NCBI RefSeq assembly: GCF_000746525.1 | Contig: NZ_CP009048.1 | Coordinates: 1 to 64,000, forward strand | Source: Pseudomonas alkylphenolica | Lineage (GTDB): Bacteria > Pseudomonadota > Gammaproteobacteria > Pseudomonadales > Pseudomonadaceae | Direction of reading: 5' to 3' | DNA length: 64,000 nt | Part shown: in pieces, positions 15,594-44,877 of the stretch | Layout: each line of letters opens with the position of its first letter | Numbering within the stretch: the first letter of the stretch is position 1 | Made by a program: the position numbers and the translations under genes | The notes under the pieces: generated by a model | Database searches by the model: none | What the model was told of the DNA's origin: nothing | The model's input: only the letters and a program-made list of their open reading frames with translations

Positions 15594-15598
15594 TCAGG
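15594..15598. repeat. Left target-site duplication TCAGG
   Basis: TCAGG follows the gyrB stop codon directly and precedes a TGT-starting end. The same five bases follow the ACA at the right end of the element. Five bases is the duplication length of Tn7-type transposition. Confidence 0.75.
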
Positions 15599-15650
15599 TG
15601 TCGATGGGCACATTAAGTGTCGCAAGTGGGCGAGTTACTGTCGCTTTCTA
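15599..15650. mobile_element. Outer left transposon-end-like sequence
   Basis: It begins TGTCGATGGGCACATTAAG and repeats TGTCGC at short distance, which looks like a Tn7-type end with transposase-binding repeats. Compared with the reversed right end (TGTAGGTGGGCAAAGTTAA), 13 of 19 positions agree. It differs from the inner left end 260 bases further in. It directly abuts the TCAGG after gyrB, so it either is the true left end of the resident element or belongs to an earlier element at the same site. Confidence 0.5.
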
Positions 15651-15653
15651 GGG

Positions 15654-15682
15654 AAAACCCCGGCCTTGGTGTCGGGGTTTTT
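15654..15682. terminator. Hairpin terminator downstream of gyrB
   Basis: Stem AAAACCCCG / CGGGGTTTTT with T-runs in both directions, in the 260-base segment between the two left-end-like sequences. It probably terminates gyrB transcription in the present arrangement. Confidence 0.75.
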
Positions 15683-15796
15683 CTTTGTGGCGTAGCCTAG
15701 TCAAAGCGATACACACCAGGCTCCAAGCCCTAGTTTGGGTTTTATGGGCGATGTGATGGAGCATGGTTGCGGCTTCATCGAAACAAACTGCATCCT

Positions 15797-15856
15797 TGCT
15801 TGGCTGCTTGGCTGCTTGGCTGCTTGGCTGCTTGGCTGCTTGGCTGCTTGGCTGCT
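15797..15856. repeat. Seven-copy tandem repeat of TGGCTGCT
   Basis: Seven perfect head-to-tail copies of TGGCTGCT (15801-15856), preceded by half a copy, ending 2 bases before the inner left transposon end. Perfect identity implies recent slippage or copy-number variation. No gene covers it; the open frame across it only reflects the repeat. Confidence 0.95.
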
Positions 15857-15858
15857 TG

Positions 15859-15897
15859 TGTAGGTGGACAAAGTTAAAAGTCAGGGACAAAGTTAAC
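15859..15897. mobile_element. Inner left end with two TnsB-type sites
   Basis: It starts TGTAGGTGGACAAAGTTAA, the near-exact inverse of the right terminus. A second copy of GGACAAAGTTAA follows at 15885-15896. One terminal and one inner site fit a Tn7-type left end. The flanking bases GCTTG do not match the right flank TCAGG. Confidence 0.85.
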
Positions 15898-15904
15898 TGA
15901 AACG

Positions 15905-15939
15905 AAAAGCCCCCGGTGGATTGATCCACTGGGGGCTTT
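15905..15939. terminator. Terminator of the type I operon
   Basis: Long near-perfect stem AAAGCCCCC-GGTGGA / TCCACT-GGGGGCTTT with A- and T-runs either side, 20 bases beyond the metallopeptidase stop. It closes the minus-strand operon and also insulates it from transcription coming from gyrB. Confidence 0.85.
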
Positions 15940-15959
15940 CCGTTTCAAGGGTGTAGGAG

Positions 15960-16682
15960 TTACCAACGTTCGTCAGCAAGGTGAGAGCTGTTGAGCTGCT
16001 CTTTCAACAGGTGCCATTGAGGGAGATGCTGATCTAGCAGGCTGATGAATCGGTCGTTGTGGTGGCGTTCATGCAGGTGAGCCAGTTCGTGCACCAGAAT
16101 GTACTCCAGGCACTGCACCGGCTTCTTGGCTAGCTCCAGGTTGAGCCAGATGCGCCGGGCTTCAATGTTGCAGGTGCCCCACTTCGTCTTCATTCGCTTG
16201 ATGCCCCAAGCGCGCGCTTCAACTCCTAACTTCGGCTGCCATTTCTCCAGCAGCTCCGGCACCAGACGTTTCAGTTCGGCACGGTAGAAATTTTGTAGCA
16301 CCTGCTCACGGCGTTCGACTGTGGTATCGGTGCGCACGAATAGATCCATGGTGGCCTTACCGCGCAGAGCTATGCGCAGAGACCCAGTAGTTTCGTGAAC
16401 GCGTAGGCGGTAGCGACGGCCTAGAAAGTAATGGCTTTCACCACTGACCATCAGCCGTTCTGATTGTCGGGGCTGGGCCTGAAACTTTGCACGCTGGCGT
16501 TTGATCCAGCCGAGCTTACCGACCACTGCCAGGCGTACGGCTTCATCATCTACCGTCAACGGTGCCGCCACACGCACACGCCCCTGCGGCGGGTATACGC
16601 CTAGGTGCAGATTTTTGATCGGCTTGCGCACGACCTCCACGATCAAACCGCCGACCGTGATGTTGCGCGACTCAGTATTCAT
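15960..16682 (-). CDS. YgjP-type metallopeptidase (DUF45, M48-like)
   Basis: 240 residues with the zinc-metalloprotease motif in LVHELAHLHERHH (HExxH plus a further His) and the KTKWGTC...INLELAKKP segment typical of the YgjP/WLM-like family. No signal peptide is seen, so it is cytoplasmic. Its start overlaps the hsdR stop by 11 bases, making it the last gene of the restriction operon. Such peptidases often accompany type I systems; the substrate is unknown. Confidence 0.85.
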   Translation of the reverse strand: MNTESRNITVGGLIVEVVRKPIKNLHLGVYPPQGRVRVAAPLTVDDEAVRLAVVGKLGWIKRQRAKFQAQPRQSERLMVSGESHYFLGRRYRLRVHETTGSLRIALRGKATMDLFVRTDTTVERREQVLQNFYRAELKRLVPELLEKWQPKLGVEARAWGIKRMKTKWGTCNIEARRIWLNLELAKKPVQCLEYILVHELAHLHERHHNDRFISLLDQHLPQWHLLKEQLNSSHLADERW

Positions 16683-19600
16683 GCTGATGCTTTACCAGTT
16701 CCAGCAAGGCTTCCAGCCACTCGTTGTCCTGTCCTGCCGTGTAGTCGCCCAGGGTTTCAGTGGAGTCTTTGCACCACTGATCCAGCACGTTCTTGATCGC
16801 TAGGCGCACACGTTTGATCTTCATGGCATTGCCGCGCCAGTCGTCCTGCCGGCTATCCAGCACGGCAGCGTCCACGGCCAATGCTAGGCCGGCGTTCTGC
16901 CCCAGGTTGTCGTACAGCGCCTTTCGGGCATTACTGTTGATCGAGCCAGGGTAGCTGTTGGCGCTGGTGGGATTTTTCGCCTTTTTGGTCAGCTCCACCA
17001 CCTCTGCCAGGTATTCCTGATAGCTGATGGCGTCTTCCTTGCGCTTGGCGATCAGCGCATCGAGCAACGAGGACATGGTCTCGTAGTACTTCGGGTTGAT
17101 CGGCGACTCGTCGATAATCAACTTGCGCACGTTGTTCTCGATGGTCTCGGCCACGGCCTCCTGGCTTTTGCGGATGCCCTTGGGCAGCGCGTCGATTGCA
17201 CCCACACCGCGCTCAACGATCAGCTCAATCAGCGACATATCGTCGAAGGCAGAAATCTTCTCGCTATCTTCAGCACGGATGTAGGTGTCGATCAAAAAGC
17301 GCATGTCCGGCTCGTAGGCTTTGAGGTCGATGTAGTCGCCGCTGGCGAGCTTTACCTCATCACGAACCTTGGAGAAGTGATCGACTTCGGTCTGGATCTC
17401 GGCGACTTCCTTGTTGCTGTAACCCGCCTCCTCCAGCTCATTGGCGATATTGCCGAAGCAGCGGATCAGCGCTGAGGTCATCTTGTACAGGTTCAGGCGC
17501 TTGGGCTCATTAGCTTTGAGCTGCTCGGCGTTGCCCGGCTGGCTGCCGCAGAAGAAGCGTAGATAAGCTGGCGTATCCTTCGATTGTTCCACCGGTTCGC
17601 ACAAGGCCTTGATCGCCTCGCGGGCATCTTCCAGGTCTTCCTGTGCTTTGCTTAGGCGGTCTCCCAAAAGACCAGCCACATCGGCCTCGTCATATCCGTC
17701 CAGCGCACCGCTGGTGTAGTCGCCAATGGCGCCTTCCAGCTGCTTGAACAAGTCCTTGTAATCGATGATGTAGCCGTACTGCTTGTCCTCGCCATCGAGG
17801 CGGTTGACCCGGCAGATGGCCTGGAACAGGCCATGGTCACGCATCTGCTTGTCGATGTAGAGGTAGGTCGCGGAAGGAGCGTCAAAGCCGGTCAGCAGCT
17901 TGTCCACCACGATGAGCAGGCGCATCTGCCCTGGCTCCTTGATGAAACGCTGCTTCACCTCCTTCTCGAAGGTCTCCGGATCTTTGTCGCCCAGCATCTG
18001 GTTGTAGATGGCGTACTGACGCAGCTTCTCGGTCAGCCCTTCACCGGTGGCCTCGCCCTTGATGTCGGCAGGTGATGGCTTGTAGCTGGTGACGATGGCG
18101 CACTTGTCACCCATGCCCGCTTTGCTGAATAGCTCGTAGCACTTACAGGCTTCAAAGATGCTGCTGGTTACCAGCATGGCATTGCCTCGGCCATCGGCCA
18201 GGCGCTGCTTGGTGGCCATATCCAGCAGGATGTCGGCAACGATTTTCTCCAGCCGCGACTGGCTCGACAGCACTTTCTGCAAGGTGCCCCAACGCTGCTT
18301 CAGCTGAGCCTTGGCCAGGTCGTTCAGGCCTTTGGTCTTGGCCTCAAACCACTGATCGATCTTCTTCTGTGATGTGATGTTCTGGTCGATATCGCGGGCT
18401 TCGTAGCGCAGGTCGAGGACTACTCCATCAGCCACGGCTTCATTGAACTTGTAGGTATGGATGTAGCGGCCAAACACCTCGATGCTCTTCTGCTTGTCGG
18501 CCTTAAGCAGCGGCGTACCGGTAAAACCGATAAACACCGCATTGGGCAGGATCATCTTCATGGCTTTGTGCAGCTCGCCGGATTGGGTGCGGTGGCACTC
18601 ATCGACGAACACATAGAGATCGCCCTTGGCGCGGAAGTCTGGCGGCAGGCTCTTACGCAGCTCCTCCACAAAGCCCTCCACATCGGCATCTTCACGGGCA
18701 CCGAACTTGTGAATCAGCGAGCAAAGTAGCCAAGGTGAGGGCTGGTTGAGTTTGTCGATCAGATCGGCACCGCTGGTGGTGCGGTAAATCTGTTCGTTGA
18801 CGCCGCTAAACACCTTCTCGATCTGCTCATCAAGCTCGGTGCGGTCGGTGATGATCAGCACCCGCGAGTCCTGGATATTTTCCCGAATCCACTTGGTCAG
18901 CCAGACCATGGTCAGGGATTTTCCCGAGCCCTGGGTGTGCCAGATGATCCCGCCCTCGCGCCGGCGCAGATAGCGTTGCGCTTCACGAATGCCGAAGTAT
19001 TGGTTGTGCCGGCAGAGCTTCTTCACCCCGCTGTCGTACACGATGTAGTCGTGGATCAGCTCCAGAAAGCGCGTCTTGTTGCACAGCTGGAGTAGGTGCC
19101 GATCCAGCAGATTGTCGGCAGAGTTGCCCTCTTCGCTCTCTTCCTTCCAGGTGAGGTAGTACTTCTCTCCGGTCTGGATGGTGCCGTAACGCAGGCCCTG
19201 GGTATCGTTGCCGGCCATCACGTACTGCATGGTGGAGAAGAACGGCTGGATAAACTCAGACTTCTGATTATCCAGATTTTGACGAACCCCGTGATTGACG
19301 GCCTTCACCGAACGCTTCAGCTCCAGCACGCCAAGGGCGATACCATTAACATAGAGAACGATGTCCGGGCGCTTGGTCTGGGCCTTGGCATCGGCCCCCT
19401 TGACCGTCACTTCCTCGGCAATGGCAAAATTGTTGCGCTCGGGCTGCTTCCAGTCGATCAGCCAGACGGTCTGGGTGTTTTCGCCCACCTCAGGCTTGAT
19501 TTTCACCCCATAGCGCAGCAGCTCGTACACCGCCTTGTTGCGATCATACAGCCCTTTACTGGCATCGTTTGCAACCCTGTTCAGCTCGAAAATGGCGCGA

Positions 19601-19779
19601 CTGGCTAGGTTGGCTTCAACGCGCTGCTCAAGTAGCCAGCAACGTAGTAGCTCCGGCTCGATATTGGCGTTATAGGGGCGCTCGGCCCAGTCGCCAAGGT
19701 AGTCGTACTTCAGTTGCTGTTGGAACAGCTTGACCACGCGTTGCTGGGTCTTTCTTTCGATTTGGCCGACGGTGCTCAT
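16672..19779 (-). CDS. hsdR: Type I restriction enzyme R subunit
   Basis: 1035 residues. An N-terminal PD-(D/E)xK nuclease is seen as PDIVLYVNG...LELKR (Asp139, Glu153, Lys155). The SF2 translocase follows, with Walker A TQGSGKS (282-288), the DECH box in VFVDECHRT, and FIGFTGTP. A long C-terminal helical region should contact the methyltransferase. It cuts DNA lacking the cognate methylation after translocation. It is separated from hsdS by a 53-codon gene and overlaps the metallopeptidase gene. Confidence 0.96.
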   Translation of the reverse strand: MSTVGQIERKTQQRVVKLFQQQLKYDYLGDWAERPYNANIEPELLRCWLLEQRVEANLASRAIFELNRVANDASKGLYDRNKAVYELLRYGVKIKPEVGENTQTVWLIDWKQPERNNFAIAEEVTVKGADAKAQTKRPDIVLYVNGIALGVLELKRSVKAVNHGVRQNLDNQKSEFIQPFFSTMQYVMAGNDTQGLRYGTIQTGEKYYLTWKEESEEGNSADNLLDRHLLQLCNKTRFLELIHDYIVYDSGVKKLCRHNQYFGIREAQRYLRRREGGIIWHTQGSGKSLTMVWLTKWIRENIQDSRVLIITDRTELDEQIEKVFSGVNEQIYRTTSGADLIDKLNQPSPWLLCSLIHKFGAREDADVEGFVEELRKSLPPDFRAKGDLYVFVDECHRTQSGELHKAMKMILPNAVFIGFTGTPLLKADKQKSIEVFGRYIHTYKFNEAVADGVVLDLRYEARDIDQNITSQKKIDQWFEAKTKGLNDLAKAQLKQRWGTLQKVLSSQSRLEKIVADILLDMATKQRLADGRGNAMLVTSSIFEACKCYELFSKAGMGDKCAIVTSYKPSPADIKGEATGEGLTEKLRQYAIYNQMLGDKDPETFEKEVKQRFIKEPGQMRLLIVVDKLLTGFDAPSATYLYIDKQMRDHGLFQAICRVNRLDGEDKQYGYIIDYKDLFKQLEGAIGDYTSGALDGYDEADVAGLLGDRLSKAQEDLEDAREAIKALCEPVEQSKDTPAYLRFFCGSQPGNAEQLKANEPKRLNLYKMTSALIRCFGNIANELEEAGYSNKEVAEIQTEVDHFSKVRDEVKLASGDYIDLKAYEPDMRFLIDTYIRAEDSEKISAFDDMSLIELIVERGVGAIDALPKGIRKSQEAVAETIENNVRKLIIDESPINPKYYETMSSLLDALIAKRKEDAISYQEYLAEVVELTKKAKNPTSANSYPGSINSNARKALYDNLGQNAGLALAVDAAVLDSRQDDWRGNAMKIKRVRLAIKNVLDQWCKDSTETLGDYTAGQDNEWLEALLELVKHQHEY

Positions 19780-19864
19780 CAGTCTGTTTCCTTAGTGCGT
19801 CCTGCAAAAGAAGTGGCTGTCGCCGTGGGCTTTTGCCGTTAGCTGTTTGGCCTTGGTTAATACA

Positions 19865-20026
19865 CTACTTGCGCTTCAACTCTTTAGGAAGAAAGGCGTC
19901 AATTTCTTCATCAGAGAACGTCATATCCTCCAGCTTTTGGAGGGGCTTTTGAGCGGCACGATATGCTGCGTAATTACCAACTGCCAAGTCGCTGAGAAAC
20001 TCAGTAAAAATATCTGAGGTACTCAT
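19865..20026 (-). CDS. Small protein between hsdS and hsdR (53 residues)
   Basis: An unannotated short frame starting MSTSDIFTEFLSDLAVGN and ending PKELKRK, stop TAG. Its ATG overlaps the hsdS stop in an ATGA arrangement, exactly as hsdS overlaps hsdM, which strongly suggests it is translated. It is acidic in the middle (EDMTFSDEEID) and basic at the end. I do not recognise a family. It might bind the S or R subunit, or act as a small regulator. The remaining 85 bases before hsdR show nothing else. Confidence 0.65.
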   Translation of the reverse strand: MSTSDIFTEFLSDLAVGNYAAYRAAQKPLQKLEDMTFSDEEIDAFLPKELKRK

Positions 20027-21210
20027 GGCAGTCGAATCCTTCCAGTAAGTAGCTCCTGCACCATGCCCTGCTTGAGCTGGCGAGCCTTGTCGCGGCGGGC
20101 TTCGAGAGCGACGAGTTCAGCACTCATATCGGATAGAACGGTGGCAATGGCTGTTTGTTCTTCCTCTAAAGGTTGGGGGATTTCGAGCTGCATAAAGGCG
20201 CTTTTCGCGATGTTGTAGCGGGTCGCGCCCTGTGCCAGTATGGACATAGCAGCACGCCCTGCCTTGCTCCTGAACCAGTATGCGAAGAAAAGCCCATTCA
20301 CTTTTGCCGCTGTGTTGAAGCGGAAGCCAAAGCAGAAGCTGTTCAGGTAGAGGTTCGGAATCTCCTCAAGCAAAACGGAGCAGAAGCCCACTTCCTGAGG
20401 CGTTTCTGAGGAGCCATTGAAGAAAAGGTCTCCCTTTTTGGCGAGGTTTTGTGCTTCGTCCGGAGCAACATCGACAGGTTCAAGCCAGCTTGCATCGATC
20501 ACCGTATCGGTCATCACATTCATGAAGGGTATGTAGCGAGCTTCGCCCTGGCCGAAATTAATCTTTGTCTTTCCGGCGAGGCCGCCATAGGTAGTACCCA
20601 ATGCTCGCATGGGTTTTATGTCCCACGCTCCACTAAACCCCGGCAGGCGGAGTTGTCCGGAGAGAAGTTGTTGCATGGTGGCTTGCTGAATGTCGCGCTT
20701 TTTGGCGATCAGCTGATCCAGGCTACTGATCAGATCCTCCATTTCAGACAGAGCAGTGACAATTTTAACCTGCTCTTCTCGAGCGGGGATTGGGATTGGG
20801 ATACTCTTAAGTTGAGTGCCTGTAATCAATGGCTGCCCTGATCCAAAGATCAGGCGGTTCAGTCCATATCGTTTCAATTGGAGCAGGCAGTAAGTGTGAT
20901 CGGTACCCGGTTTTAGTCGAATCGCTATAGTGTTATCTGTGACTCCATAGCGACCATCTGCTGAATTCAATAAGCCAGCATTTGCGCCTACCCGAGCAAC
21001 CAGAATCGATTCTCCAGTGTGGGACGGAGTGTTTGTGTAGCCGATGACACCTGTAGACCCGAATACAGGGAACTGTCCGAATTCGGCATCCACCTTTGAT
21101 CTACCAGAAGCAATGGAACCAGAAAGTTCGGCTAGCTGGTGAACTTTCCAGTCCGCTGGGATCATACCGGCCTCAGATTGTTTGTATCCAGAATTCTCAT
21201 TCGCATTCAT
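20023..21210 (-). CDS. hsdS: Type I restriction system specificity subunit
   Basis: 395 residues with two target-recognition domains, each followed by a conserved helix: the first repeat ends near IVTALSEMEDLISSLDQLIAK and the second near IATVLSDMSAELVALEARRD. The phrases QQLLSGQLRLP and QELLTGRIRLP close the two halves. It determines the bipartite recognition sequence, which cannot be predicted here. It overlaps hsdM by 4 bases and the 53-codon gene by 4 bases. Confidence 0.95.
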   Translation of the reverse strand: MNANENSGYKQSEAGMIPADWKVHQLAELSGSIASGRSKVDAEFGQFPVFGSTGVIGYTNTPSHTGESILVARVGANAGLLNSADGRYGVTDNTIAIRLKPGTDHTYCLLQLKRYGLNRLIFGSGQPLITGTQLKSIPIPIPAREEQVKIVTALSEMEDLISSLDQLIAKKRDIQQATMQQLLSGQLRLPGFSGAWDIKPMRALGTTYGGLAGKTKINFGQGEARYIPFMNVMTDTVIDASWLEPVDVAPDEAQNLAKKGDLFFNGSSETPQEVGFCSVLLEEIPNLYLNSFCFGFRFNTAAKVNGLFFAYWFRSKAGRAAMSILAQGATRYNIAKSAFMQLEIPQPLEEEQTAIATVLSDMSAELVALEARRDKARQLKQGMVQELLTGRIRLP

Positions 21211-23606
21211 ACTGAAAACCCCATCTTCGCGAGATGTGCACTGACCTTGGCCGCCAGTACTTCTACCTCAGCATTTAGCGCAGGGAGTGGCGTGGTATAG
21301 CGCTCGGCAAGTTGGCGAATACGGCCACTCAGCGCTTGGGACACCCGATCCAGCTCGGTCTTCACATCGGCTTGTAGGGCAGTCAGCCATTTATCGTCTA
21401 CCACCAAGGCTTTCAGCTCGACTTCACTGAGCTGGGCATAGTGGCCCTGCACCTTGGCATCCAGCACCTTCTGCGCAGCTTTGACCTTTTTGCTGGCCAC
21501 CGCTTCACGCTCGATCAGCGTCAGGCAATGATCTAACGCCCGGCGCTCCTCGTCGGCTTCTACGTCGTACCTTATCGCTTTGAGGCGGTCTTTTACGCTT
21601 TTGGCGGTGAACTTGCCCTTGTCGGTTTTGCCTTCGGCCAGCGAGCCGTCTTCGCCACCCTGCTCCTCTTCCAGCTCTTCCAGCTCGCGGCTGACGGCAT
21701 CGCGATTGGCTTCCAGCTCGGCGATGGTGGCAGCTTCGGCGGCGTAGTAGCGGCGCACGATCAGCTCGGGGGGCAGCAGGTCGGTATTCGGTTCACCCTT
21801 GCTCGGGCCACTGGCAATCAGCGGCTGCCAACCGTCGATCACCAGTTGGTAAACGTCATCTTGCAATGTGGCGTACCAGTAGTCCTGGAGGTGCTGGTAC
21901 ACGTCGTAGGCGTCCAATAGAGGCGCGAACTCGAAGCGGTGCAGCAGGTCTTCGGCCAGAGTATTCAGCAATGCCTTGGGTCGGTCGCCAATGGCGATAT
22001 TTTGCAGGCGTGGGCGGTGCTCGTTGCGCCAGGCATCGAACAGGTCGCTTTTGGTCTGGTTAAAGGCGGTGAACTCAGGGTGAGCAAAGATGCCGGGCTT
22101 GATCTCGGCCTGCGGCACCTTGAGTTGCAGATAGCTTGGGCGCAGTGGGGCGAACAATGCGCTGCGCAGGTTGGGCATCACCTCCCAGTAAGCTTGCAAG
22201 GCATCCACATCGCGTTCGGGGATGCCGCCGTGCAGGTGGGCGTCGATGTCTTGCAGGTCTTCCGCTGCGCTGGTGTCGATATAGCGCGGGATATTCAGGT
22301 TGAAGTCGTTGGCCTCGATCTCGGCCAGCGGCACCAGGCGTGAGAATTTCGGCAGCTCACGTTGTTGGGTGCAGGCATCGACGATCTTGTGGATGTCCTG
22401 CTCGCGCAGGCGGTTCTTGTTGCCGTCTTTGATAAAGCCCTTGCTGGCGTCGATCAGGAACAGCCCCTTGCGCCCAGCACTGCCGGCTTTGTCGAGAATG
22501 ATGATGCAGGCAGGAATGCCAGTACCGAAGAACAGATTGGCAGGCAAACCTATGATGGCCTGGATATAGCCTTGCTGGAGGATGCGCTTGCGGATAACCC
22601 CTTCGGCCCCGCCCCGGAACAACACGCCGTGGGGCAAAATTACCGCCGCCTTGCCGGTGCTTTTCAGTGAGGTGAGCATGTGCAGAAGAAAGGCGTAGTC
22701 GCCGTTCTTCTCTGGTGGAATGCCGTAGCTGAAGCGGTTGTAGTCGTCCTCAGTTGGGTTGAAGCCATTGCTCCAGGCCTTGGTGGAGAACGGCGGGTTG
22801 GCGACGATGAAGTCGAACAGCTTGAGGTTGCCCATCGGGTCTTTGAAATGTGGTGCGGACAGGGTGTTGTCCTTCCAGATTTCGGCCGTTGGGCAGTCGT
22901 GTAGGATCATGTTCATCTTGGCCAAGGCGCTGGTGGCGTTGTCCATTTCCTGGCCGTAGATGGCCAAGTCGAGCCCGGTGGTGCTCTTGGCTTCGTCGTG
23001 GGCCTTGAGCAGCAGCGAGCCGGAGCCGCAGGTCGGGTCGTAAATGCTCTGCTTGCTGTCGGTAGCGCCGGCTAGGCCGATAACCTGGGCCATGATCCGC
23101 GAGACTTCTGCTGGGGTGTAAAACTGCCCCTTGCTCTTGCCGGATTCAGTGGCAAAGTGGCGCATCAGGTATTCGTAGGCATCGCCGAGGATGTCGTCGC
23201 CTTGAGCACGGTTGCTGCGAAAATCCAGACCTGGCGTGTTGAAGATGCTGACCAGGTTGGACAGGCGGTCGACCATCTCCTTGCCCTTGCCGAGCTTCTC
23301 CTGATCGTTGAAATCGGCCACGTCGATGACGCCAGTGAGGTTATTGGCCTCAGCCAGGCGGGAGATGATCTTGTTGATCTTGTCGCCGATCTCCTTGTCG
23401 CCCTTGAGCGCCACCATATCGGCAAAGCTGCCTCCCTCAGGCACCTCGATCAGCGAGTTGGGGTCGCCGGCGTACTTGTCCGACACGTACTTCACGAACA
23501 GCAGCACCAGGACGTAATCCTTGTACTGCGAGGCATCCATCCCGCCACGCAGCTCGTCGCAGGATTTCCACAGAGAGGAATAGAGTTCGGATTTCTTGAT
23601 GGCCAT
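21207..23606 (-). CDS. hsdM: Type I restriction system N6-adenine methyltransferase
   Basis: 799 residues with an N-terminal helical domain, SAM motif I YDPTCGSGSLLLKA (from about residue 189) and catalytic NPPF (270-273). The C-terminal third is unusually long and rich in charged helices (LEELEEEQGG...), and is likely to bind the S subunit and DNA. Both catalytic motifs are intact, unlike in the upstream fusion gene. Likely active with HsdS. Confidence 0.96.
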   Translation of the reverse strand: MAIKKSELYSSLWKSCDELRGGMDASQYKDYVLVLLFVKYVSDKYAGDPNSLIEVPEGGSFADMVALKGDKEIGDKINKIISRLAEANNLTGVIDVADFNDQEKLGKGKEMVDRLSNLVSIFNTPGLDFRSNRAQGDDILGDAYEYLMRHFATESGKSKGQFYTPAEVSRIMAQVIGLAGATDSKQSIYDPTCGSGSLLLKAHDEAKSTTGLDLAIYGQEMDNATSALAKMNMILHDCPTAEIWKDNTLSAPHFKDPMGNLKLFDFIVANPPFSTKAWSNGFNPTEDDYNRFSYGIPPEKNGDYAFLLHMLTSLKSTGKAAVILPHGVLFRGGAEGVIRKRILQQGYIQAIIGLPANLFFGTGIPACIIILDKAGSAGRKGLFLIDASKGFIKDGNKNRLREQDIHKIVDACTQQRELPKFSRLVPLAEIEANDFNLNIPRYIDTSAAEDLQDIDAHLHGGIPERDVDALQAYWEVMPNLRSALFAPLRPSYLQLKVPQAEIKPGIFAHPEFTAFNQTKSDLFDAWRNEHRPRLQNIAIGDRPKALLNTLAEDLLHRFEFAPLLDAYDVYQHLQDYWYATLQDDVYQLVIDGWQPLIASGPSKGEPNTDLLPPELIVRRYYAAEAATIAELEANRDAVSRELEELEEEQGGEDGSLAEGKTDKGKFTAKSVKDRLKAIRYDVEADEERRALDHCLTLIEREAVASKKVKAAQKVLDAKVQGHYAQLSEVELKALVVDDKWLTALQADVKTELDRVSQALSGRIRQLAERYTTPLPALNAEVEVLAAKVSAHLAKMGFSV

Positions 23607-23701
23607 GTGGTTCGTTGTGTCCCGTTGTTAATAACAAGGTTGTAAGTTAGGCACTCGACTGCTCCGAAGTAGGAAGAGTATTCCTGCTTGTCGGGCGCGG
23701 A

Positions 23702-33790: not shown

Positions 33791-33800
33791 GAGCAATACC

Positions 33801-35717: not shown

Positions 35718-36070
35718 CCGTTCCGGACACCTGGGCTGAGCGGCAGTTGCAGGAAGCGCTACGTACCCCGTTCGCCACGCCGGTCACGGCCTACCTTACC
35801 GACGTGTACATATGCAGTTGCTGTGCCGTGGGGGTTATTCATCACGATGCACGACCAGCTGAGCGCGAGCTGTTTCTGGATGGTCAGCGCATTCGTACGT
35901 CTGACATCCGAAGTGTCTCTCGTGATGGGCATTACTGGGTCATCCACACAGCGAGTCAGAGTCGCTATGTCCTCGTCACCTTTCATGCCGATGGTGGAAA
36001 AAAGTCGTTTATCGATTTTTTGATGATTTTGTCCAACGGTTTCTATTCCACTCCGGGTCGACTGCACTAA
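35714..36070 (+). CDS. Small protein coupled to tniQ (paralogue A)
   Basis: 118 residues, family not recognised. The core pattern is YLTDVYICSCCAVG near the start and SRYVLVTF...GGKKSFIDF...NGFYSTP at the end. It overlaps the tniQ stop by 4 bases, so it is translated from the tns operon. The next gene, split by IS21, encodes a clear relative, which shows a local duplication and a conserved role. The paired cysteines after the first strand may bind metal. A role in targeting or regulation is inference from position only. Confidence 0.7.
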   Translation: MTVPDTWAERQLQEALRTPFATPVTAYLTDVYICSCCAVGVIHHDARPAERELFLDGQRIRTSDIRSVSRDGHYWVIHTASQSRYVLVTFHADGGKKSFIDFLMILSNGFYSTPGRLH

Positions 36071-36145
36071 CCGGGAGGTAGGCGGATGACAGCGGCGTTC
36101 GAGCTGGCGCAGGCACTAAGTAATCGTGAGCTGTGGTTATCCATG

Positions 36146-36151: not shown

Positions 36152-36279
36152 TGCGGATTCCACGCCATCCGGCCACCCAGTCCGCTCTCATCTGGCCAGG
36201 CATTCCAGGGCCATCTGGCCACCTGTTCCACGGCCATCCGGCCGGGCAGTCGGAGCGCAGCGACGCAGGGGTGGCATTG

Positions 36280-37035
36280 TTAGTCCGGGTTGGCTGGCGT
36301 CGTCAATTTCTGCGTCCGTTTGCGCATTGATTCACCCTTCAGATTGATCCGGTAAGCGTTGTGCACCAGGCGGTCGAGGATAGCGTCGGCCAGGGTCGGA
36401 TCGCCGATCAGTTCGTGCCAGTTGTCCACCGGCATCTGGCTGGTAACGATGGTCGAGCGCTGGCCGTAGCGGTCGTCCAGTAGCTCCAGCATGTCGCGCC
36501 GCTGTTCGGCGGTGAACGGGGCCAAGCCCCAGTCATCGAGGATCAGCAGGTCGGTCTTGGCGTAGCTGCTCATCAGCTTGGCGAAGCGCCCGTCGCCATG
36601 GGCCAGACCCAGTTCTTCCAGCAAACGCGGCAAGCGCAGGTAACGCACGCTGTAGCCTTCTCGGCAGGCCTGGTGGGCCAGGGCGCAGGCCAGCCAGGTT
36701 TTACCGACACCGGTGGGGCCGCCGATGATCAGGTTGAGGCCGTCGCGTAGCCACTGGCCGCCGCTCAGTTGCAGGATCAGCGCCTTATCCAGCCCGCGCG
36801 GGCTGCGGTAGTCGATGTCTTCGAGGCAGGCGTTGTGCTTGAGCCGGGCCTGGCGCAGGCGGCTGCTCAGGCGCTTGTCGTCGCGTTCAGTCAGCTCGCG
36901 GTCGACCAGCAGGCCGAGGCGTTCCTCGAAGCTCAGGCTGTCGATGTCCGGGGTTTTCAGTTGTTCGTTCAGCGCCTTGAGCATGCCGTGCAGGCGCAGG
37001 GTTTGCAGCTTGTCCAGGGTCGGATGGGGCAGCAT
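36280..37035 (-). CDS. istB: IS21-family helper ATPase IstB
   Basis: 251 residues starting MLPHPTLDKLQTLRLHGM. It is a DnaA/DnaC-type AAA+ protein with Walker A GGPTGVGKTWLA and Walker B LLILDDWGLAPF. It directs the IstA transposase to target DNA. The frame is open far upstream inside istA, but the family start and the 17-base spacing after the istA stop fix the ATG. Confidence 0.95.
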   Translation of the reverse strand: MLPHPTLDKLQTLRLHGMLKALNEQLKTPDIDSLSFEERLGLLVDRELTERDDKRLSSRLRQARLKHNACLEDIDYRSPRGLDKALILQLSGGQWLRDGLNLIIGGPTGVGKTWLACALAHQACREGYSVRYLRLPRLLEELGLAHGDGRFAKLMSSYAKTDLLILDDWGLAPFTAEQRRDMLELLDDRYGQRSTIVTSQMPVDNWHELIGDPTLADAILDRLVHNAYRINLKGESMRKRTQKLTTPANPD

Positions 37036-37052
37036 GGTGGGATTCCTTGTGT

Positions 37053-38567
37053 TCAGTGGTAGTAGCCGGGGCCGCGCAGGTTGGCGTGGTCGTCCGGCAG
37101 CAGGGGCAGGTGCTGCTGGGCCAGCGGCAGGTTCTCCAGCCCCTGGCGCAGGATCGATTCGAGGCTCTTGTAGCTGCACGTGCCGAGGCTGATGGCGCGA
37201 CGGCAGGCCAACTCCAGGCGCACTTCGCCGTGGGTTTTGCCCAGGCGCAGGATGCCCAGGCAGGCCCGGTAGCCCTGCTGCGGATGGATGCGCCGTTCGA
37301 GGATGTGCCGGATCACGCCGGCGGTGTTCGGCCCGGTCTGCTCGGCCCAGCGGATCAGCCGTTGTGGCGTCCACTCGGCATGCTCGCGATGGCTCTTGGG
37401 CATGTGCTCGGCCTGCGTGCTGTGCCGGCCCTTGTGCATTGAGCGCAGGTGGCTGGCCACTCGCTGGTTGGCGTGGAAACACTCGACGGTGCGCGCCGTC
37501 AGGCGCACCTCCAGCTGCTTCTTCACCAGTTGATACGGCACCGAGTAGTAATGCCCATCGACCTCGACGTGGTAGTCGATGTGCACCCGCGCTTTCTTCC
37601 ACTCGGCGTAGACGTAGGGTTGCTCCGGCAGGGGGCGCAGCGCCGGACGATCCAGGCTGTCGAAGGCCGTCTGGCGCGAGCCCGGCAGCTTCTTGAACGG
37701 GCGTTGGTTGAGCCGCTCCAGCAACACGGAGATGGCGCTGTTGAGTTCGTCCAAGGAGAAGAACTGACGGTTGCGCAGGGCCGCGAGGATCCAACGCTCG
37801 ACCACCTGCACGCCGACTTCGGCCTTGGCCTTGTCGCGCGGTTTGCGTGCCCGCGCCGGCACCACCGCCACTCCGTAGTGCTCGGCAAGGTCGCGGTAGC
37901 TGGGGTTGATGTCCGGCTCGTAACGATGGGCCTTGCTCACCGCGCTGCGCAGGTTGTCCGGCACCACGATCTCCGGCACGCCGCCGAGGAAGGCGAAGCA
38001 ACGGGTATGCGAGCCTAGCCAGTCCGGCAGCTGCTGCGACCAGGTGGCTTCGGCGAAGGTGTAGCTGGACGCGCCGAGCACCGCGACGAACACCTGCGCC
38101 TGGCGGATCTCGCCGCTGTGGCGGTCGATAACCGGCACCGTCTGGCCGGCATAGTCGACGAACAGCTTCTCGCCGACGCGGTGCTCCTGACGCATCACCA
38201 CGTCCAGCTTGCCCTGCCAGGCCCGGTAGTGCTCACAGAACCAGCTGTACTGAAAGCCCTGCGGCTGGCTCAGGCGGTACTCCTGCCAGAGCAGCGCCAG
38301 GGTCACCCCGGGGCGGCGCAGTTCGGCATGCACCCATGCCCAATCGGGTAAAGGCCGCTTCTCGCTGGCAACCGCCGGGGCCGGCGGGAACAGTTGCTGC
38401 TCCAACTCGGCATCGGACAACGAACAGGGCCAACTGAGACCACTGGCGGCAAAACGATTGAGGTAGTCGCCGACGGTGACACGACCGACCTGCACGCTGA
38501 CCGCAATCTGGCGAGCTGATAGTCCGACCTCGAACTTGAGACGTAGTACTTCGCGAATCTTACGCAT
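37053..38567 (-). CDS. istA: IS21-family transposase IstA
   Basis: 504 residues. N-terminal helix-turn-helix (GLSARQIAVSVQVGRVTV) and an integrase-type core with KLFVDYAGQ, VVPDNLRSAV and DKAKAEVGVQ carrying the Asp, Asp and Glu. The ATG giving MRKIREVLRLKFE has GGAG 9 bases upstream; an in-frame GTG 15 bases earlier is less likely. Intact. Confidence 0.95.
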   Translation of the reverse strand: MRKIREVLRLKFEVGLSARQIAVSVQVGRVTVGDYLNRFAASGLSWPCSLSDAELEQQLFPPAPAVASEKRPLPDWAWVHAELRRPGVTLALLWQEYRLSQPQGFQYSWFCEHYRAWQGKLDVVMRQEHRVGEKLFVDYAGQTVPVIDRHSGEIRQAQVFVAVLGASSYTFAEATWSQQLPDWLGSHTRCFAFLGGVPEIVVPDNLRSAVSKAHRYEPDINPSYRDLAEHYGVAVVPARARKPRDKAKAEVGVQVVERWILAALRNRQFFSLDELNSAISVLLERLNQRPFKKLPGSRQTAFDSLDRPALRPLPEQPYVYAEWKKARVHIDYHVEVDGHYYSVPYQLVKKQLEVRLTARTVECFHANQRVASHLRSMHKGRHSTQAEHMPKSHREHAEWTPQRLIRWAEQTGPNTAGVIRHILERRIHPQQGYRACLGILRLGKTHGEVRLELACRRAISLGTCSYKSLESILRQGLENLPLAQQHLPLLPDDHANLRGPGYYH

Positions 38568-38771
38568 GGATAAACGCTCCACGACGACCTCTCTGCTTCG
38601 AAAAAGAGGTCGATGGTAGTGAAGAAATCCTGCGTAGCTGCCTGCCCGGTTGAGTGGCCGGATGGCCGTGGAATCAGTGGCCGGATGCGCGTGGAATGGG
38701 TGGCCGGATCAGCGTGGAATCGGTGGTCAGATGCTCATGGAATGGGTGGCCAGATGACCGTGGAATCCGCA

Positions 38772-38777
38772 ACGGCC
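38772..38777. repeat. IS21 target duplication, right copy (ACGGCC)
   Basis: The second copy of ACGGCC, following the right terminus and leading in frame into the 3' part of the interrupted gene. Confidence 0.9.
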
Positions 38778-39548: not shown

Positions 39549-39725
39549 CGCGCCACCCCCGGCTTCGCATCTTTTCAGGTGCTACCGTTACCGATTCGCT
39601 TGGCCCACCGGCGCGTGATCGGCGGGCGGCTGACAGCGTTGACCCAGCGGGTGGCGGCGGACGGGACGGCAACACTTCGCCCCGCAGCAGGTAGGCCAAC
39701 GGCCCGTTGATTATGAGGTGGTGCC

Positions 39726-40460: not shown

Positions 40461-40763
40461 GTCTGTTGGGCCATACACGTGGCGATAGGAGGGATTCGAA
40501 CCACGCTGCGCATAACCCATCATCGGTTAGTTCGGGTTCGGCTGCGTCCATCGTAAAGCCCGTGAAGCAGGGTACGCCGCAACCGCCCGGCGGCGGGTGT
40601 GTAACCTGTGCACGCTCAAATAGGGGGGGCGTCGACCATTGCCACCTGTGTCTGCAGTGCATTCTTGCGGGGCTCCGCCGCCACCTGCATTGATCCGGGC
40701 AACGTGTTCTGCCCGACTGGCCCACTGCACGCGATCGTTCGGTGCCCGGTATGACAGTGGGCG
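40461..40763. other. Non-coding stretch with a tRNA 3'-end remnant
   Basis: No gene is seen in these 300 bases. On the minus strand, about 40480-40504 reads GGTTCGAATCCCTCCTATCG followed by CCA, which looks like the T-loop, acceptor strand and CCA of a tRNA. The 5' partner of the T-stem is not preserved and no anticodon arm was found upstream, so this is a fragment and not a tRNA gene. It could be an old attachment-site remnant. Confidence 0.45.
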
Positions 40764-41669
40764 TTACTCTCGTTCAAGGTGACGCGCATCGGAACTAACC
40801 GCCTCCATGATGGACACTAACTCCTCAAGCAGGTCAGCATGGTAACGGTAGAGGTAACCGGCAATCGCATCATTCCGTAGTACCCGAGCGATGTAGCCTT
40901 TCGCTACGACCAAGACCAACATCGTTTCCCCAAGCGTGTCCTCGACGGATTTGTAGTCGTGGTAGAGCTTTTCCATTTCCCGTTCCATGCGAGCAATGTC
41001 TTCGGCGTTGGCTTCATTGCTCCCCTTTTTCTTCGCTTCCACCAACATCTCTGGACGTGTGGCGGCCAGTACCATGCGGGCATAGTTCTGCGTAAAGCAG
41101 TTCGCGGACGTCATTAGCTCAACGGTTTCGAATTGCCGGAAGGGCTTCATCTTTTTCAGGATGCGAAAGACCTCTCGGCCAACCATTCTGACCTTCAGCA
41201 TGTCGACGACCTCTGGTGCAATACCGTCCAGTAAGTGCTGGCGCTCGCGCACTCGATCTACGTGGATCCCCAGAACTTTGGCGATGAGGGCCGGTTCGAT
41301 ACCTTTCTTCACTGCCGCCATGATCATCTTGTGTTCCTGAACCGGTGTCAGACGATTGATTTGGCGGTTGTAGGTGAAGCCTTCGTCGTCCGTTGAAATC
41401 AGGCACAAGGCTTCCTTGCCACCCAGCGCCTTCAGGGCTGCTAAACGGAGGTGACCGTCCAAGAGAATGAACGAGGCGACCCCATCGGTGACTACCGGCT
41501 GAGGATGAACAGCCAGCGGCTCAATCACCCCTAGCTCGCGGATTGAAGAGAGGATCGTCGAGTATTTTTTGCTACTTTGAACGTCTTTGTCCAACTTGTG
41601 CGTCGGGAGTATGCGTTCGAGGGGGATCGTGATTATCCTTCGTTCAAAGGCGTGTTTAATTTGCCCCAT
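40764..41669 (-). CDS. RepB/ParB-like protein (third gene of the recombinase operon)
   Basis: 301 residues. N-terminal ParB-type segment (IPLERILPTHKLDK...ELGVIEPLAVHP...FILLDGHLRLAALKALG), where the usual GERR box is replaced by DGHLR. It is followed by a helix-turn-helix around IAKVLGIHVDRVRERQ and a C-terminal domain like that of RepB-type partition proteins. Its ATG shares one base with the preceding stop (TGATG), so translation is coupled. Without a ParA in the module, classical plasmid partition is unlikely. Confidence 0.8.
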   Translation of the reverse strand: MGQIKHAFERRIITIPLERILPTHKLDKDVQSSKKYSTILSSIRELGVIEPLAVHPQPVVTDGVASFILLDGHLRLAALKALGGKEALCLISTDDEGFTYNRQINRLTPVQEHKMIMAAVKKGIEPALIAKVLGIHVDRVRERQHLLDGIAPEVVDMLKVRMVGREVFRILKKMKPFRQFETVELMTSANCFTQNYARMVLAATRPEMLVEAKKKGSNEANAEDIARMEREMEKLYHDYKSVEDTLGETMLVLVVAKGYIARVLRNDAIAGYLYRYHADLLEELVSIMEAVSSDARHLERE

Positions 41670-42589
41670 CAGGATGCCTCACCTTGTATGCGATCCGCCA
41701 AGGCCTTGGGCATATCTTGAATGGCTTCGGTACGCAGCAACGTGCAGAAGTATTCGTCGGCAAGGAGTTTGCGCATGGCGGTCACCATAATCAGCAAGCG
41801 CTGCTCATTAATGTCGGCCTTTTTAATCATGACCTTCTGCCGGCGGACTTCGTTCTGATAGGCATTGAGCAGTTTTTGTGGCGTGGTGAGCTGTTCAGCA
41901 CTATGGGGGCGGTGGCTGTAGTTCTTTCCTAGGGCCTTACGTCGATCAATGAGTCGGCGGATTTTTATTATTTGATCCCCTTTGAGCACGCCTGACTCAT
42001 ACGCTTCGACCATTGCCAGCTGGGTCTCACTGTCACTGGCACGGGCGATAATGGTGGCCACTTTGATCGGTAACCAACCCTTCTCTACTGCAGCAATCAA
42101 GCGTTCTTCGCCCTGACGCAAGAGCATGAGAATACAGTTGACATAGGCGGGATCCAGCCCAGTTTTCGCGGCAATTTCCTTCGTGCTGTAGCCCCGCTCG
42201 GACAGAATGTTCATGGACGACAGCAGATCGCGATTGGAGTGCTTCCGTCGGGCCAGGTTTTCTACCAGACTGATGAGAAAACGATCTGCTTCTTTCGCGC
42301 TAACCACCACACACGGGATTTCCTGTTCTCCCAACGTGCTAAATGCTTCGAAGCGGCCTTGGCCGCAGACCAGGTCGAATGTCTCGCCATGATCGTCAGC
42401 CCCATTCACGCTGACGGTGATGGGGCGTTTCAGGCCGATGGCCGCAATGTTTTCCACCAATTTGGCGAAGACCGCTTTATTGCGTACACGCGGGTTCAAT
42501 ACGCGAATGCGATCTAGGCGAATGAGTTGAATCGTCGAAGCGCCTGCGACATGCAGGTGAGCTTTTTCTAACCGCTGGCTAGGGTTCAT
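41669..42589 (-). CDS. ParB-like protein (second gene of the recombinase operon)
   Basis: 306 residues. ParB-like N domain (IQLIRLDRIRVLNPRVRNKA...GLKRPITVSV...FDLVCGQGRFEAFSTLGEQEIPCVV), with GQGRFEA in place of GERRWRA, then LVENLARRKHSNRD, a variant of the ENIQRE box. The helix-turn-helix is YSTKEIAAKTGLDPAYVNCIL. It overlaps the recombinase stop by 4 bases. The two ParB-like proteins are distinct from each other and from the chromosomal ParB. They may act as heteromeric DNA-sliding or recombination-directionality factors; this is inference. Confidence 0.82.
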   Translation of the reverse strand: MNPSQRLEKAHLHVAGASTIQLIRLDRIRVLNPRVRNKAVFAKLVENIAAIGLKRPITVSVNGADDHGETFDLVCGQGRFEAFSTLGEQEIPCVVVSAKEADRFLISLVENLARRKHSNRDLLSSMNILSERGYSTKEIAAKTGLDPAYVNCILMLLRQGEERLIAAVEKGWLPIKVATIIARASDSETQLAMVEAYESGVLKGDQIIKIRRLIDRRKALGKNYSHRPHSAEQLTTPQKLLNAYQNEVRRQKVMIKKADINEQRLLIMVTAMRKLLADEYFCTLLRTEAIQDMPKALADRIQGEAS

Positions 42590-44154
42590 GCTGCTCTCCT
42601 GTAGTGGGATCGGCGAGAAAGATCAGCCAACATGTCCAACGTGGAGAATCGGTAAATCTCGAGGTTGGATTGGTTGTTTTCGGCCAGACGCAGGTGGGGG
42701 GTGTGCATATCGACGGCAGGCAGGATGTAGTAGTCCAGAGCCATTTCTTCGCCTGGAGCCATACGCACGGCGATGGTGATGTCCGGGTTGAGACCTAAAT
42801 CAAAGCGCACTTTCCAGCGCTTGGTGCCCGCCCCCGAAATGTGGCAACGACAGAGCACCAAAGAAACTGCCAACTCGTCATTGAGCCGCAATAGCTGTGT
42901 CGTAGGGTCGACGACGACTTGCCCACCGACCGCGTGTATTTTCTCAGTGGTCTCATTGAGCAGGCGCGGATGCATCAGGCGCAGCTGCCGATTGGCTTCG
43001 AGGTATTGATAGTCCCTGGACGGGGTGTAGCCAATCAGCGAGTAAGTGCGCAACAGGCTGCCAAAGCGATTTTGATAAGCGCTACTGGACGGGCAGGTTT
43101 CCGCCTCATCGATCAGCAGACCTGAGAGATATCCACGCTGTTCATACAATCCTTTGAGGCGGCGCAGCATTTCCTGGTCAGGCATTCGGTACGAGCGGGT
43201 TTGGATGATTTCTTGAGCGGCGACAAACAACAACTGGCTAACGATGGGTTGAAAAGCCGCATCTGATCGCACCCATTGTGCTGGCTCATTGCGCATGCGC
43301 TGTTGTTTGAGTTTGAACGAATAGCGATTCCAGACGTTATTACCAATGTATTTTTCGTTTATGAGCACTTGGTGGACGGTGCCGCGCGTCCAGGGGCGCT
43401 CAAGGTCAGTCAGAACACCATTGGCATTGAGTCGGTCGGCAATTTCGCGTTCACTTCGTCCCTCCTCTACAAAGTCGCGATAGATTTGTTGCACGACGTG
43501 GATTTCTTCCCTTGGCCCAGGCACCAAGATCACACGATCCGTCTGGATACTCTTATGCGTCCCTCGGGTCAGCTCGCCTTTGGACGATCCAGTGGCATCG
43601 ATCAGCTGCCGCCGTAAACCAAAGCCAGCGGTGCCACCTTGACGGTAGCCAAGCTCGATAAGGCGAGATTGGCCGGCAAACACTTTGACTGAGAGTTCGC
43701 GACTGTACTCACCCGCCATCATGCGCTTCACACTCTTAATGATGTTGGAGACTGGTGAGCCGTCGTTTTGAAATTGCTCGGCGCAGTATTGAACGGAGAC
43801 CCCGGCCTGGCGACAGCGAACCTCATAGCTGGCACTTACATCCGGATCTTGAAACCGTCCCCAGCGGCTAACGTCATAAACCAAGATGGTTGAGTACATT
43901 GCCTGTCCGCTTTCAACGTCGTCGAAAAGCTGTTTCAGCGCATCACGTCCCTTCAGCCGTAAACCGCTTTTCCCTGCGTCGGTGTAGACCTGAACAATTT
44001 CGAGTGCGTGCGTCAGTGCATAGAGTCGAATCGTGTCGAGTTGGTTTTCGGTGGAGTACTGCTGATGTTCAGTCGACATCCTTACATAGGCCGCTGCCAG
44101 AGCGGGATCCCGAACCGGTTGATCGGCGGTCTGGGCATAATTTCGCTTCCGCAT
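42586..44154 (-). CDS. Large serine recombinase
   Basis: 522 residues. N-terminal resolvase domain with YVRMSTEHQ (catalytic Ser27, with the Tyr-x-Arg-x-Ser pattern), YDVSRWGR and MAGEYSREL, then a Recombinase domain (GFGLRR...EIADRLNANGV...WTRGTVHQVLINEKYIGN). The C-terminal 150 residues lack the usual zinc ribbon and coiled coil and have a distinctive ending (LDYYILPAVDM...YRFSTLDMLADL). The ATG has AGGGGG 9 bases upstream; an in-frame GTG 27 bases earlier is less likely. It heads a coupled operon with two ParB-like genes. Confidence 0.9.
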   Translation of the reverse strand: MRKRNYAQTADQPVRDPALAAAYVRMSTEHQQYSTENQLDTIRLYALTHALEIVQVYTDAGKSGLRLKGRDALKQLFDDVESGQAMYSTILVYDVSRWGRFQDPDVSASYEVRCRQAGVSVQYCAEQFQNDGSPVSNIIKSVKRMMAGEYSRELSVKVFAGQSRLIELGYRQGGTAGFGLRRQLIDATGSSKGELTRGTHKSIQTDRVILVPGPREEIHVVQQIYRDFVEEGRSEREIADRLNANGVLTDLERPWTRGTVHQVLINEKYIGNNVWNRYSFKLKQQRMRNEPAQWVRSDAAFQPIVSQLLFVAAQEIIQTRSYRMPDQEMLRRLKGLYEQRGYLSGLLIDEAETCPSSSAYQNRFGSLLRTYSLIGYTPSRDYQYLEANRQLRLMHPRLLNETTEKIHAVGGQVVVDPTTQLLRLNDELAVSLVLCRCHISGAGTKRWKVRFDLGLNPDITIAVRMAPGEEMALDYYILPAVDMHTPHLRLAENNQSNLEIYRFSTLDMLADLSRRSHYRRAA

Positions 44155-44253
44155 CGGCAATGGCCCCCTGCAAGGCACCACAGGTTGTTTTGATCTATGG
44201 AGATTCAGCTGCTGTGAGCATTTAAATGACGATAGAAGAGGGGAAATGGAAAA

Positions 44254-44622
44254 ATGTTACCTAAAACGGGCAGTTTTTTTCTGAGCCATGAACAGTACGC
44301 CGAAGGCATCGCCAGGGCATTGCGGACAGAGCTAGGTGCTACGCACCAGGCGGTGAAAACACTCATGAAATGGACGAATGCAAATGAAAGGACGGCAAAA
44401 AACTGGTTGGCAGGTGTCAGTGGCCCAAGGGGAGAACACCTTGCTGCGCTGATTCAACACTCAGATCTGGCCCTCGACACGTTTCTACACATGGCCCAAC
44501 GGCGGCAGGCTGTGGTGGCGTCGACCCTGCCCACACTCAGGGACAAACTCATGATGGCTGTGGCGACAATTGATGCTTGTCTGAGCGATACAGTAGCCAA
44601 CGACCTCGCTTCTCAAGCATGA
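44254..44622 (+). CDS. Small HTH-like protein divergent from the recombinase operon
   Basis: 122 residues. Central segment LGATHQAVKTLMKWTNANERTAKNWLAG reads like a helix-turn-helix used by small regulators, followed by helical C-terminal residues. AGAGGGGAAA precedes the ATG. It is transcribed away from the recombinase operon across about 100 bases, and so is a likely regulator of both. I have seen similar proteins next to recombinases of this type but cannot name the family. Confidence 0.65.
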   Translation: MLPKTGSFFLSHEQYAEGIARALRTELGATHQAVKTLMKWTNANERTAKNWLAGVSGPRGEHLAALIQHSDLALDTFLHMAQRRQAVVASTLPTLRDKLMMAVATIDACLSDTVANDLASQA

Positions 44623-44668
44623 GCCTCATTGCAGGGAAGGTAGAATCCGTTTTAAACATGGATTCATG

Positions 44669-44698
44669 TTTTGACAATTTGTCAAAACCAATTATATT
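44669..44698 (+). promoter_or_regulatory. Palindrome-overlapped promoter facing the right transposon end
   Basis: TTGACA (44671-44676), 16-base spacer, TATATT (44693-44698): a strong sigma70-type promoter. The perfect palindrome TTTTGACAATTTGTCAAAA (44669-44687) covers the -35 element and is a likely repressor site. No gene lies downstream before the element end, so the transcript would run through the end or be a short RNA. Confidence 0.55.
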
Positions 44699-44746
44699 GA
44701 AGTGATAGTTTCCTGTTTGCGGGTGGCCTATTACTACGATTAAATT

Positions 44747-44764
44747 TAACTTCAGCCGAAGTTA
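44747..44764. repeat. Hairpin inside the right end
   Basis: TAACTTCAGCCGAAGTTA is a perfect inverted repeat with a 4-base loop just inside the TnsB-type sites. Its arm AACTT resembles half of the GTTAACTTTG sites, so it may be a diverged outer binding site. Confidence 0.4.
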
Positions 44765-44775
44765 GGTGTCGGTCG

Positions 44776-44872
44776 GTTAACTTTGTCCAAATGGAAGATT
44801 AACTTTGACCGAAGTCATTGTATAATGCTGATATTAAAAGTTGTCAAAGTCGATTAACTTTGCCCACCTACA
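44776..44872. mobile_element. Right end with three TnsB-type sites
   Basis: Sites with consensus RTTAACTTTGNCC at 44776-44788, 44798-44810 and 44853-44865; the last runs into the terminus CACCTACA. A weaker match (GTTGTCAAAG) lies between the second and third. Three sites at the right and two at the left reproduce the asymmetric end layout of Tn7-type elements. Confidence 0.88.
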
Positions 44873-44877
44873 TCAGG
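44873..44877. repeat. Right target-site duplication TCAGG
   Basis: TCAGG follows the terminal ACA and equals the five bases after the gyrB stop. It is followed by TGTAGG, which with the transposon terminus makes CCTACA-TCAGG-TGTAGG, an accidental-looking inverted repeat across the junction. Confidence 0.78.

Follow-up and report, generated by a model that had tools for sequence, protein, structure and literature searches.

The element behind gyrB and its boundaries

The window analysed here, a stretch of 64,000 nucleotides of Pseudomonas alkylphenolica DNA, carries a 29-kb Tn7-like element directly 3′ of gyrB, and the outer ends of this copy belong to two different element families. The attachment gene gyrB (13113..15593, + strand) encodes gyrase B domains according to Pfam, so the site does not count as a parE attachment site. 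Its TGA stop codon is followed by TCAGG (15594..15598), and foreign DNA extends up to 44872, where a second TCAGG (44873..44877) lies behind CCCACCTACA and is followed by native flanking DNA carrying a terminator. Both copies were assigned as target-site duplications from the sequence and from empty sites in relatives. Near the 3′ end of gyrB, at 15549, TTCATCGAAAGCAACGCC is the proposed recognition region, as suggested by the motif and its spacing in relatives.

Four adjacent genes on the + strand, in the arrangement that defines Tn7-like elements, form the transposition core: tnsA (30254..30970, Tn7_TnsA-like_N), tnsB (30960..32885, Mu-transpos_C and an alignment of 13 TnsB proteins), tnsC for a TniB-like AAA ATPase (32882..33790, Pfam) and a gene for a TniQ/TnsD-type target selector of 638 aa (33801..35717). 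Residues D249/D254, D333 and E369 of TnsB are invariant in the 13 aligned sequences and form a candidate DDE triad; the alignment is consistent with an intact DDE enzyme, and the element may still be mobile. Pfam, an AlphaFold2 model and its structure matches predict for TniQ an N-terminal TniQ domain followed by C-terminal winged-helix/MerR-like units.

Empty sites were searched for by comparing the right flank of the window with 199 genomes of the genus. In the three best relatives (G089, G007, G015) gyrB joins a flank of the window type, with a single TCAGG or CCAGG and 93, 90 and 84% identity to the window; the G015 site has about 50 additional bases ahead of the terminator. Given that gyrB and the right flank adjoin in these empty sites, both the insertion and the duplication of 5 bp are genuine, and a chance match of TCAGG is ruled out. 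The next six loci (L005-L010) are uninformative on the empty site, gyrB not being found in 1.5 kb upstream. A plain flank with TGTAGGTTC also succeeds the gyrB stop codon in G217, G119 and G045. The native DNA after TCAGG, in the window (44878-44885) as in the empty sites, starts with TGTAGGTT, the first 7 bases of which are those of the B end described below; this likeness is either chance or the remnant of an old end.

Two element families insert at gyrB, namely family A with TGTCGATGGGCACA ends (the elements read TGTCGATGGGCAC), including a subtype A2 whose ends read TGTCGACGGGCAAG, and family B with TGTAGGTGGGCAAAG ends. In the window, the inverted right end (44854-44872) agrees with TGTAGGTGGACAAAGTTAA (15859-15877) at 18 of 19 positions, which none of 100 shuffles achieved, while the sequence at 15599, TGTCGATGGGCACATTAAG, represents a different type of end. 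The outer ends are thus of A type at 15599 and of B type at 44872, with the B partner lying inside at 15859; the comparison of ends rules out the 15599 terminus as partner of 44872. The A-family left end (15599..15651, +; TGTCGATGGGCACATTAAGTGTCGCAAGTGGGCGAGTTACTGTCG) contains repeated putative TnsB sites and is found behind gyrB also in A elements whose two duplications match, such as those of G099 and G350. It is followed by a terminator-like hairpin (15652..15683, +) read from the sequence, and similar hairpins occur in most A and A2 ends compared. At one A2 locus (L121, G255) a terminator likewise lies behind the end, and the DNA past it resembles what we take to be the start of a group II intron. 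An imitation of the gyrB 3′ end (15740..15787, +) and an 8-bp tandem repeat of TGCTTGGC in 7.8 copies (15797..15858, +; Tandem Repeats Finder) then precede the B-family left end (15859..15896, +), which has two GGACAAAGTTAA repeats and was identified by end comparison as the partner of the right end. The B-family right end (44777..44872, − strand), assigned in the same way, has inverted TTAACTTTG repeats and a terminal CCTACA. The inner B left end has no matching 5-bp flank (GCTTG versus TCAGG). The TGT/ACA termini with their repeats, which are putative transposase sites, have the form of Tn7-type ends.

The first-pass annotation had proposed a 29-kb Tn7-like element behind gyrB with TCAGG on both sides, tnsABC and tniQ inside it and a clean empty site on its removal. 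The sequence, the open frames at 30254-35717 and the three nearest relatives bear this out, and the junction without insert, suggested as a check in other Pseudomonas, is present in G089, G007 and G015. Its TGT at 15599 and its right terminus exist as described; the pairing of these two as inverted partners does not hold, since the partner is at 15859. It overlooked that the window joins ends from two different families.

The remaining genes include cargo. A block on the − strand (15960..25465; Pfam, PADLOC) comprises a YgjP-like metallopeptidase gene (15960-16682) and a type I restriction-modification system with hsdR, hsdS, hsdM and a second N6-methylase/S-like open reading frame (ORF); a Sel1-repeat protein with 12 repeats (Pfam) is encoded at 26424..27887 (+). 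The small protein gene orf118 (35714..36070, +) downstream of tniQ is present in both families. A second orf118-like gene is interrupted by an IS21-family insertion (IstA, IstB; Pfam) at 36152..38772 (−), with approximate boundaries, visible as a gap in alignments to G376 and G201; this insertion holds internal 23-bp repeats. Two RepB/ParB-like genes and a gene for a large, CcrB-like serine recombinase (40764..44181, −; Pfam, NCBIfam) occur in members of both families and perhaps serve cointegrate resolution or form a second mobility module. A DUF6957 protein and a metallophosphoesterase are also encoded inside the element. As to a second, plasmid-directed pathway by TnsE or guide RNA, none of the 29 window ORFs scanned, short ORFs being outside the scan, matched TnsE or Cas; no Cas family, and hence no Cascade gene, was found among the window ORFs scanned with Pfam, and Rfam gave no match at gathering scores. 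No array-like family was seen among the 20 of 33 direct-repeat families viewed for a CRISPR array, a view that a short atypical array could escape.

Two element families share the gyrB site

At least 26 insertions at gyrB were found in Pseudomonas, the window included. An A or A2 outer end is present in 16 (G000, G099, G350, G351, G126, G128, G277, G105, G076, G313, G087, G136, G192, G255, G093, G225) and a B outer end in 10 (G058, G325, G037, G201, G395, G276, G293, G330, G069, G317). The genus-wide pattern TTCTGAN{2,6}TGTMGRYGG was too loose, matching 126 of 398 genomes and often also in the reversed control, and 20 hits were picked by eye among the matches listed, 10 of them behind gyrB; because of this looseness and the picking by hand, the 26 insertions are a lower bound and not a frequency. 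G242, which matched a 265-bp query, was discarded as the match was to its own gyrB. Elements start 48-51 bp past the gyrB TTCAT in all 25 loci for which a script determined this distance; a count on the sequence gives 51 bp for G317. Insertion beside this conserved gene is hence site-specific.

The 5-bp duplications match in 9 of 9 relatives in which both ends could be located, the right end being taken as the best inverted end with at most 5 mismatches. The duplications of A/A2 elements are TCAGG (G099, G350), TCCAG (G128), ATTCC (G277) and CCAGC (G087), those of B elements TCCAG (G058), CCAGC (G325), TTGGG (G037) and TCCGG (G201). The G087 right end departs from the A consensus at 5 positions, and G277 has an additional, weaker right-end candidate (5 mismatches) with a non-matching flank. 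In each of these nine relatives both outer ends belong to the same type.

The transposition proteins of the window are of B type. Among the 13 TnsB proteins compared, those of B-ended elements are 46-84% identical to the window TnsB and those of A/A2-ended elements 24-29%. The TnsB clade agrees with the end type throughout these 13, with the reserve that the genes and the gyrB end of G076 lie on separate contigs.

The related TniQ is found at the same place. It gave a match at E ≤ 1e-60 in 14 of 398 genus genomes (window included). In 12 of these it lies at gyrB; in the remaining two (G376, G076) the link to gyrB is obscured by contig breaks, and no match among the 14 was seen away from gyrB. 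The gyrB-directed lineage that the earlier annotation had put forward, and its suggested check for related tniQ genes at the same site, are thus supported by at least 26 insertions 48-51 bp behind the same gyrB codons and by 12 of the 14 genomes with a full-length related TniQ. A tblastn search of plasmids with TniQ returned 19 records, all below 60% identity. In an order-wide draw, matches to the TniQ profile came from 19 of 193 further genomes, including one of the same genus; none had an E-value better than 5.7e-27, and all covered part of the profile. Those matches of the protein search that bear names, a minority, are mostly from Pseudomonas, Geopseudomonas and Halopseudomonas. A third, distant TnsB-TnsC-TniQ set with a TniQ about 21-22% identical lies about 1.8-2 kb behind gyrB in four genomes (G217, G245, G119, G045; L096, L097, L098, L101). 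These sets were put aside: the three viewed (G217, G119, G045) have a plain flank after the gyrB stop codon, and no ends were seen by eye.

The gyrB imitation and the origin of the window copy

The 48-nt imitation located between the left ends of A and B type in the window (ATGGGCGATGTGATGGAGCATGGTTGCGGCTTCATCGAAACAAAC, reading MGDVMEHGCGFIETN) agrees with gyrB at 32 of 48 positions, compared with 20.1 (sd 1.4, max 25) for shuffles. The corresponding values are 36 in G277, 32 in G128 and 30 in G105, i.e. 63-75% identity in four elements. Of the 16 A/A2 left ends, 8 (G000, G277, G128, G105, G087, G192, G136, G093) show the succession of A/A2 end, imitation, short tandem repeat and B left end. 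This succession was not seen in G099, G350, G351, G126, G076, G313, G225 and G255, with the reading reaching about 700 bp beyond gyrB in G225 and G255 and about 2 kb in G076. The copies of the imitation in G087, G192 and G136 are degenerate and were recognised chiefly by their likeness to that of G093. The inner B end stops after about 15 bases in G136 and is altered at the fifth base in G093. A further site, in G051, has the imitation and a B left end without an A end, and neither a transposase gene nor a B right end was present in the 40 kb examined there. The tandem repeats preceding the nested B end (window 15797-15858; G128, G105, G277, G087, G136, G093) differ, with TTGGCTGC, TTGG, TTGGCTGA, CAGC and CACC as units, as if they had grown independently.

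The likeness to gyrB could be due to chance, or to a host fragment that is unrelated; the nested B end would then have arrived in another way. The G087 copy, with 21 of 48 positions no better than shuffles or background, would agree with this, as would the lead of gyrB by just 1 of 48 in G093, the altered TTCAT core in G192 and the spacing between imitation and B end of 71-85 bp in five of the elements measured, where the tandem repeat is longer. We nevertheless consider this rather unlikely. When the 64-kb window was searched on both strands, its own copy excepted, the gyrB 3′ end was the best match for 6 of the 7 copies tested (27-33 of 48, against a background averaging about 12 with sd 3 and next-best matches of 25-27), G087 showing no preference. 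Moreover, the spacing is 48 bp in G093, 51 bp in G051 and 52 bp in G136, and the inner B end recurs in half of the A/A2 left ends. These distances fit an entry of B elements at the imitation that would have been guided by TniQ, followed by growth of the repeat and loss of the B right end. Searches with B right ends found none inside A elements.

A function of this arrangement can be suggested only tentatively. The imitation might be a working copy of the attachment site that, together with a stolen B end, serves in the competition for one site, as a decoy that diverts B elements from gyrB into the resident element, and/or confers target immunity against them, TnsB bound to the B end clearing TnsC. 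We give this little probability. The inner B end does travel with A elements, and G277, G128 and G087 carry it between A/A2 ends with matching duplications; the damaged or altered B ends of G136 and G093 and the degenerate imitations of G087, G192 and G136 speak against it. Part of the imitation and nested B end may be a relic.

Taken together, we consider it probable that the window contains a TniQ-directed Tn7-like element with the gyrB 3′ end as attachment site, that two families share this site, and that the copy is an A/B hybrid which most likely arose by homologous recombination of tandem A and B elements. In such a scheme TniQ would read the gyrB codons around TTCATCGA, TnsC would then be recruited, and TnsAB would integrate the element some 50 bp further downstream, where the stop codon lies, duplicating 5 bp. 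A position at the stop codon leaves gyrB intact. A tandem of one A and one B element would then recombine, joining the A left part to the B core and right end, and TCAGG would flank the hybrid on both sides because A and B elements insert at the same host base. The similarity of the window is mosaic. Its first 10.6 kb (gyrB, A end, imitation, nested B end, restriction cargo) mostly match G128 in order at 87-89%, with a gap over the specificity gene, the transposase core matches the B elements of G376 and G201 at 80-89%, and the terminal 120-136 bp match B right ends at 75-81%. G128 has a second B left end 7 bp behind the right end of its A element, with a gyrB spacing of 52, and is likely the type of precursor from which the window copy derived.

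Several observations weigh against the hybrid origin and the gyrB specificity. No complete A-B tandem was found, and in G128 the roughly 62 kb that follow the second B left end showed neither a B transposase nor a B right end. The RepB-RepB-recombinase block adjoins the B right end, yet its proteins are 69-73% identical to those of A members and 37-55% to those of B members, so that a single exchange does not suffice. Ends of A-like type are also present at places other than gyrB (G313, G204, G082), with weaker matches in G064 and G260. The G313 end (L081/L082) is intergenic, lies 50 bp behind a TTTATCGA motif (TTTATCGAGCAGAATGC) and possibly marks a secondary site; the gene ahead of it is presumably nrdB-like.

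Instead of a hybrid, the copy could be a single transposon with unlike ends, in which a B-type TnsAB used the A left end together with the B right end, mobilised 15599-44872 in one piece and generated the TCAGG duplication directly. Indeed, TCAGG flanks exactly this pair, and the two end types agree at 13 of 19 positions in G128 (6 mismatches). At this host site, however, any inserting element would be expected to have TCAGG on both sides, 15859 offers a closer partner end, and the nine relatives with both ends have outer ends of the same type, which makes this explanation distinctly unlikely. Far less probable still is a mobile B unit alone (15859-44872) preceded by 260 bp of host DNA including the TCAGG match: the B ends do match each other and TCAGG is a common 5-mer, but the absence of the 260 bp from the three empty sites already contradicts it, and in G099 and G350 A ends with matching duplications bound elements. 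That gyrB is a mere hot spot for untargeted insertion, for which no supporting point was found, can practically be dismissed, as untargeted insertions would scatter, whereas all 25 loci fall within a 4-bp range and the G313 non-gyrB site keeps a similar spacing to its motif.

Relation to known Tn7-like systems

With gyrB, an essential gene and drug target joins the attachment sites of protein-guided Tn7-like elements. The target selector could serve programmed insertion in Pseudomonas, and, given the paired ends and the imitation of the site, it should be possible to test directly for competition, tandem insertion and cross-immunity of two families at one site. In the main texts of the open-licence literature, including the accessible parts of PMC8649781, PMC10293859, PMC11406308 and PMC12452197, we found no description of gyrB as an attachment site for Tn7-like elements, although one may be in print elsewhere; the literature on immunity and nesting yielded nothing on the gyrB site. 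Tn7-family genes in P. putida are mentioned in PMC3056050, whose available portion does not mention gyrB. P. putida HB3267 carries a Tn7-like transposon, B479_00025-B479_00140 (PMC4731212, in the part accessible), and that part does not name gyrB as its attachment site. The locus tags of this transposon begin where the gene after gyrB is expected, and the numbering suggests that it may occupy the same site.

Tn6022/AbaR-type elements, which according to the available text of PMC10293859 are inserted in comM and use TnsF, likewise combine a Tn7-like core with a dedicated chromosomal site. The element described here differs in lying behind gyrB and not in comM; no TnsF-like partner was recognised among the ORFs scanned, no search having been aimed at TnsF. 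In the type I-F3 CRISPR-associated transposon (CAST) of the Tn7017 type, a parE site is targeted by TniQ (PMC11406308, accessible part), i.e. a TniQ protein steers insertion beside the gene of a type II topoisomerase subunit, as is proposed here. In contrast, the target here is gyrB, and neither a Cas protein nor a second TniQ was found among the ORFs scanned; kinship with parE-directed elements would be suggested by analogy. Tn7 itself, with TnsD and its glmS site, shares TnsABC together with a TniQ-domain selector, insertion behind an essential gene that is read at its coding end, and the 5-bp duplication. The TnsD site of Tn7 lies at +23 to +58 from the insertion centre, as given in the available text of PMC2918618. 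Unlike Tn7, which inserts about 20 bp behind its gene, the element described here targets gyrB and inserts at the stop codon itself, about 14.6 kb of mostly cargo separates the gyrB-side end from tnsA, and the selector is predicted to have winged-helix-like C-terminal units.

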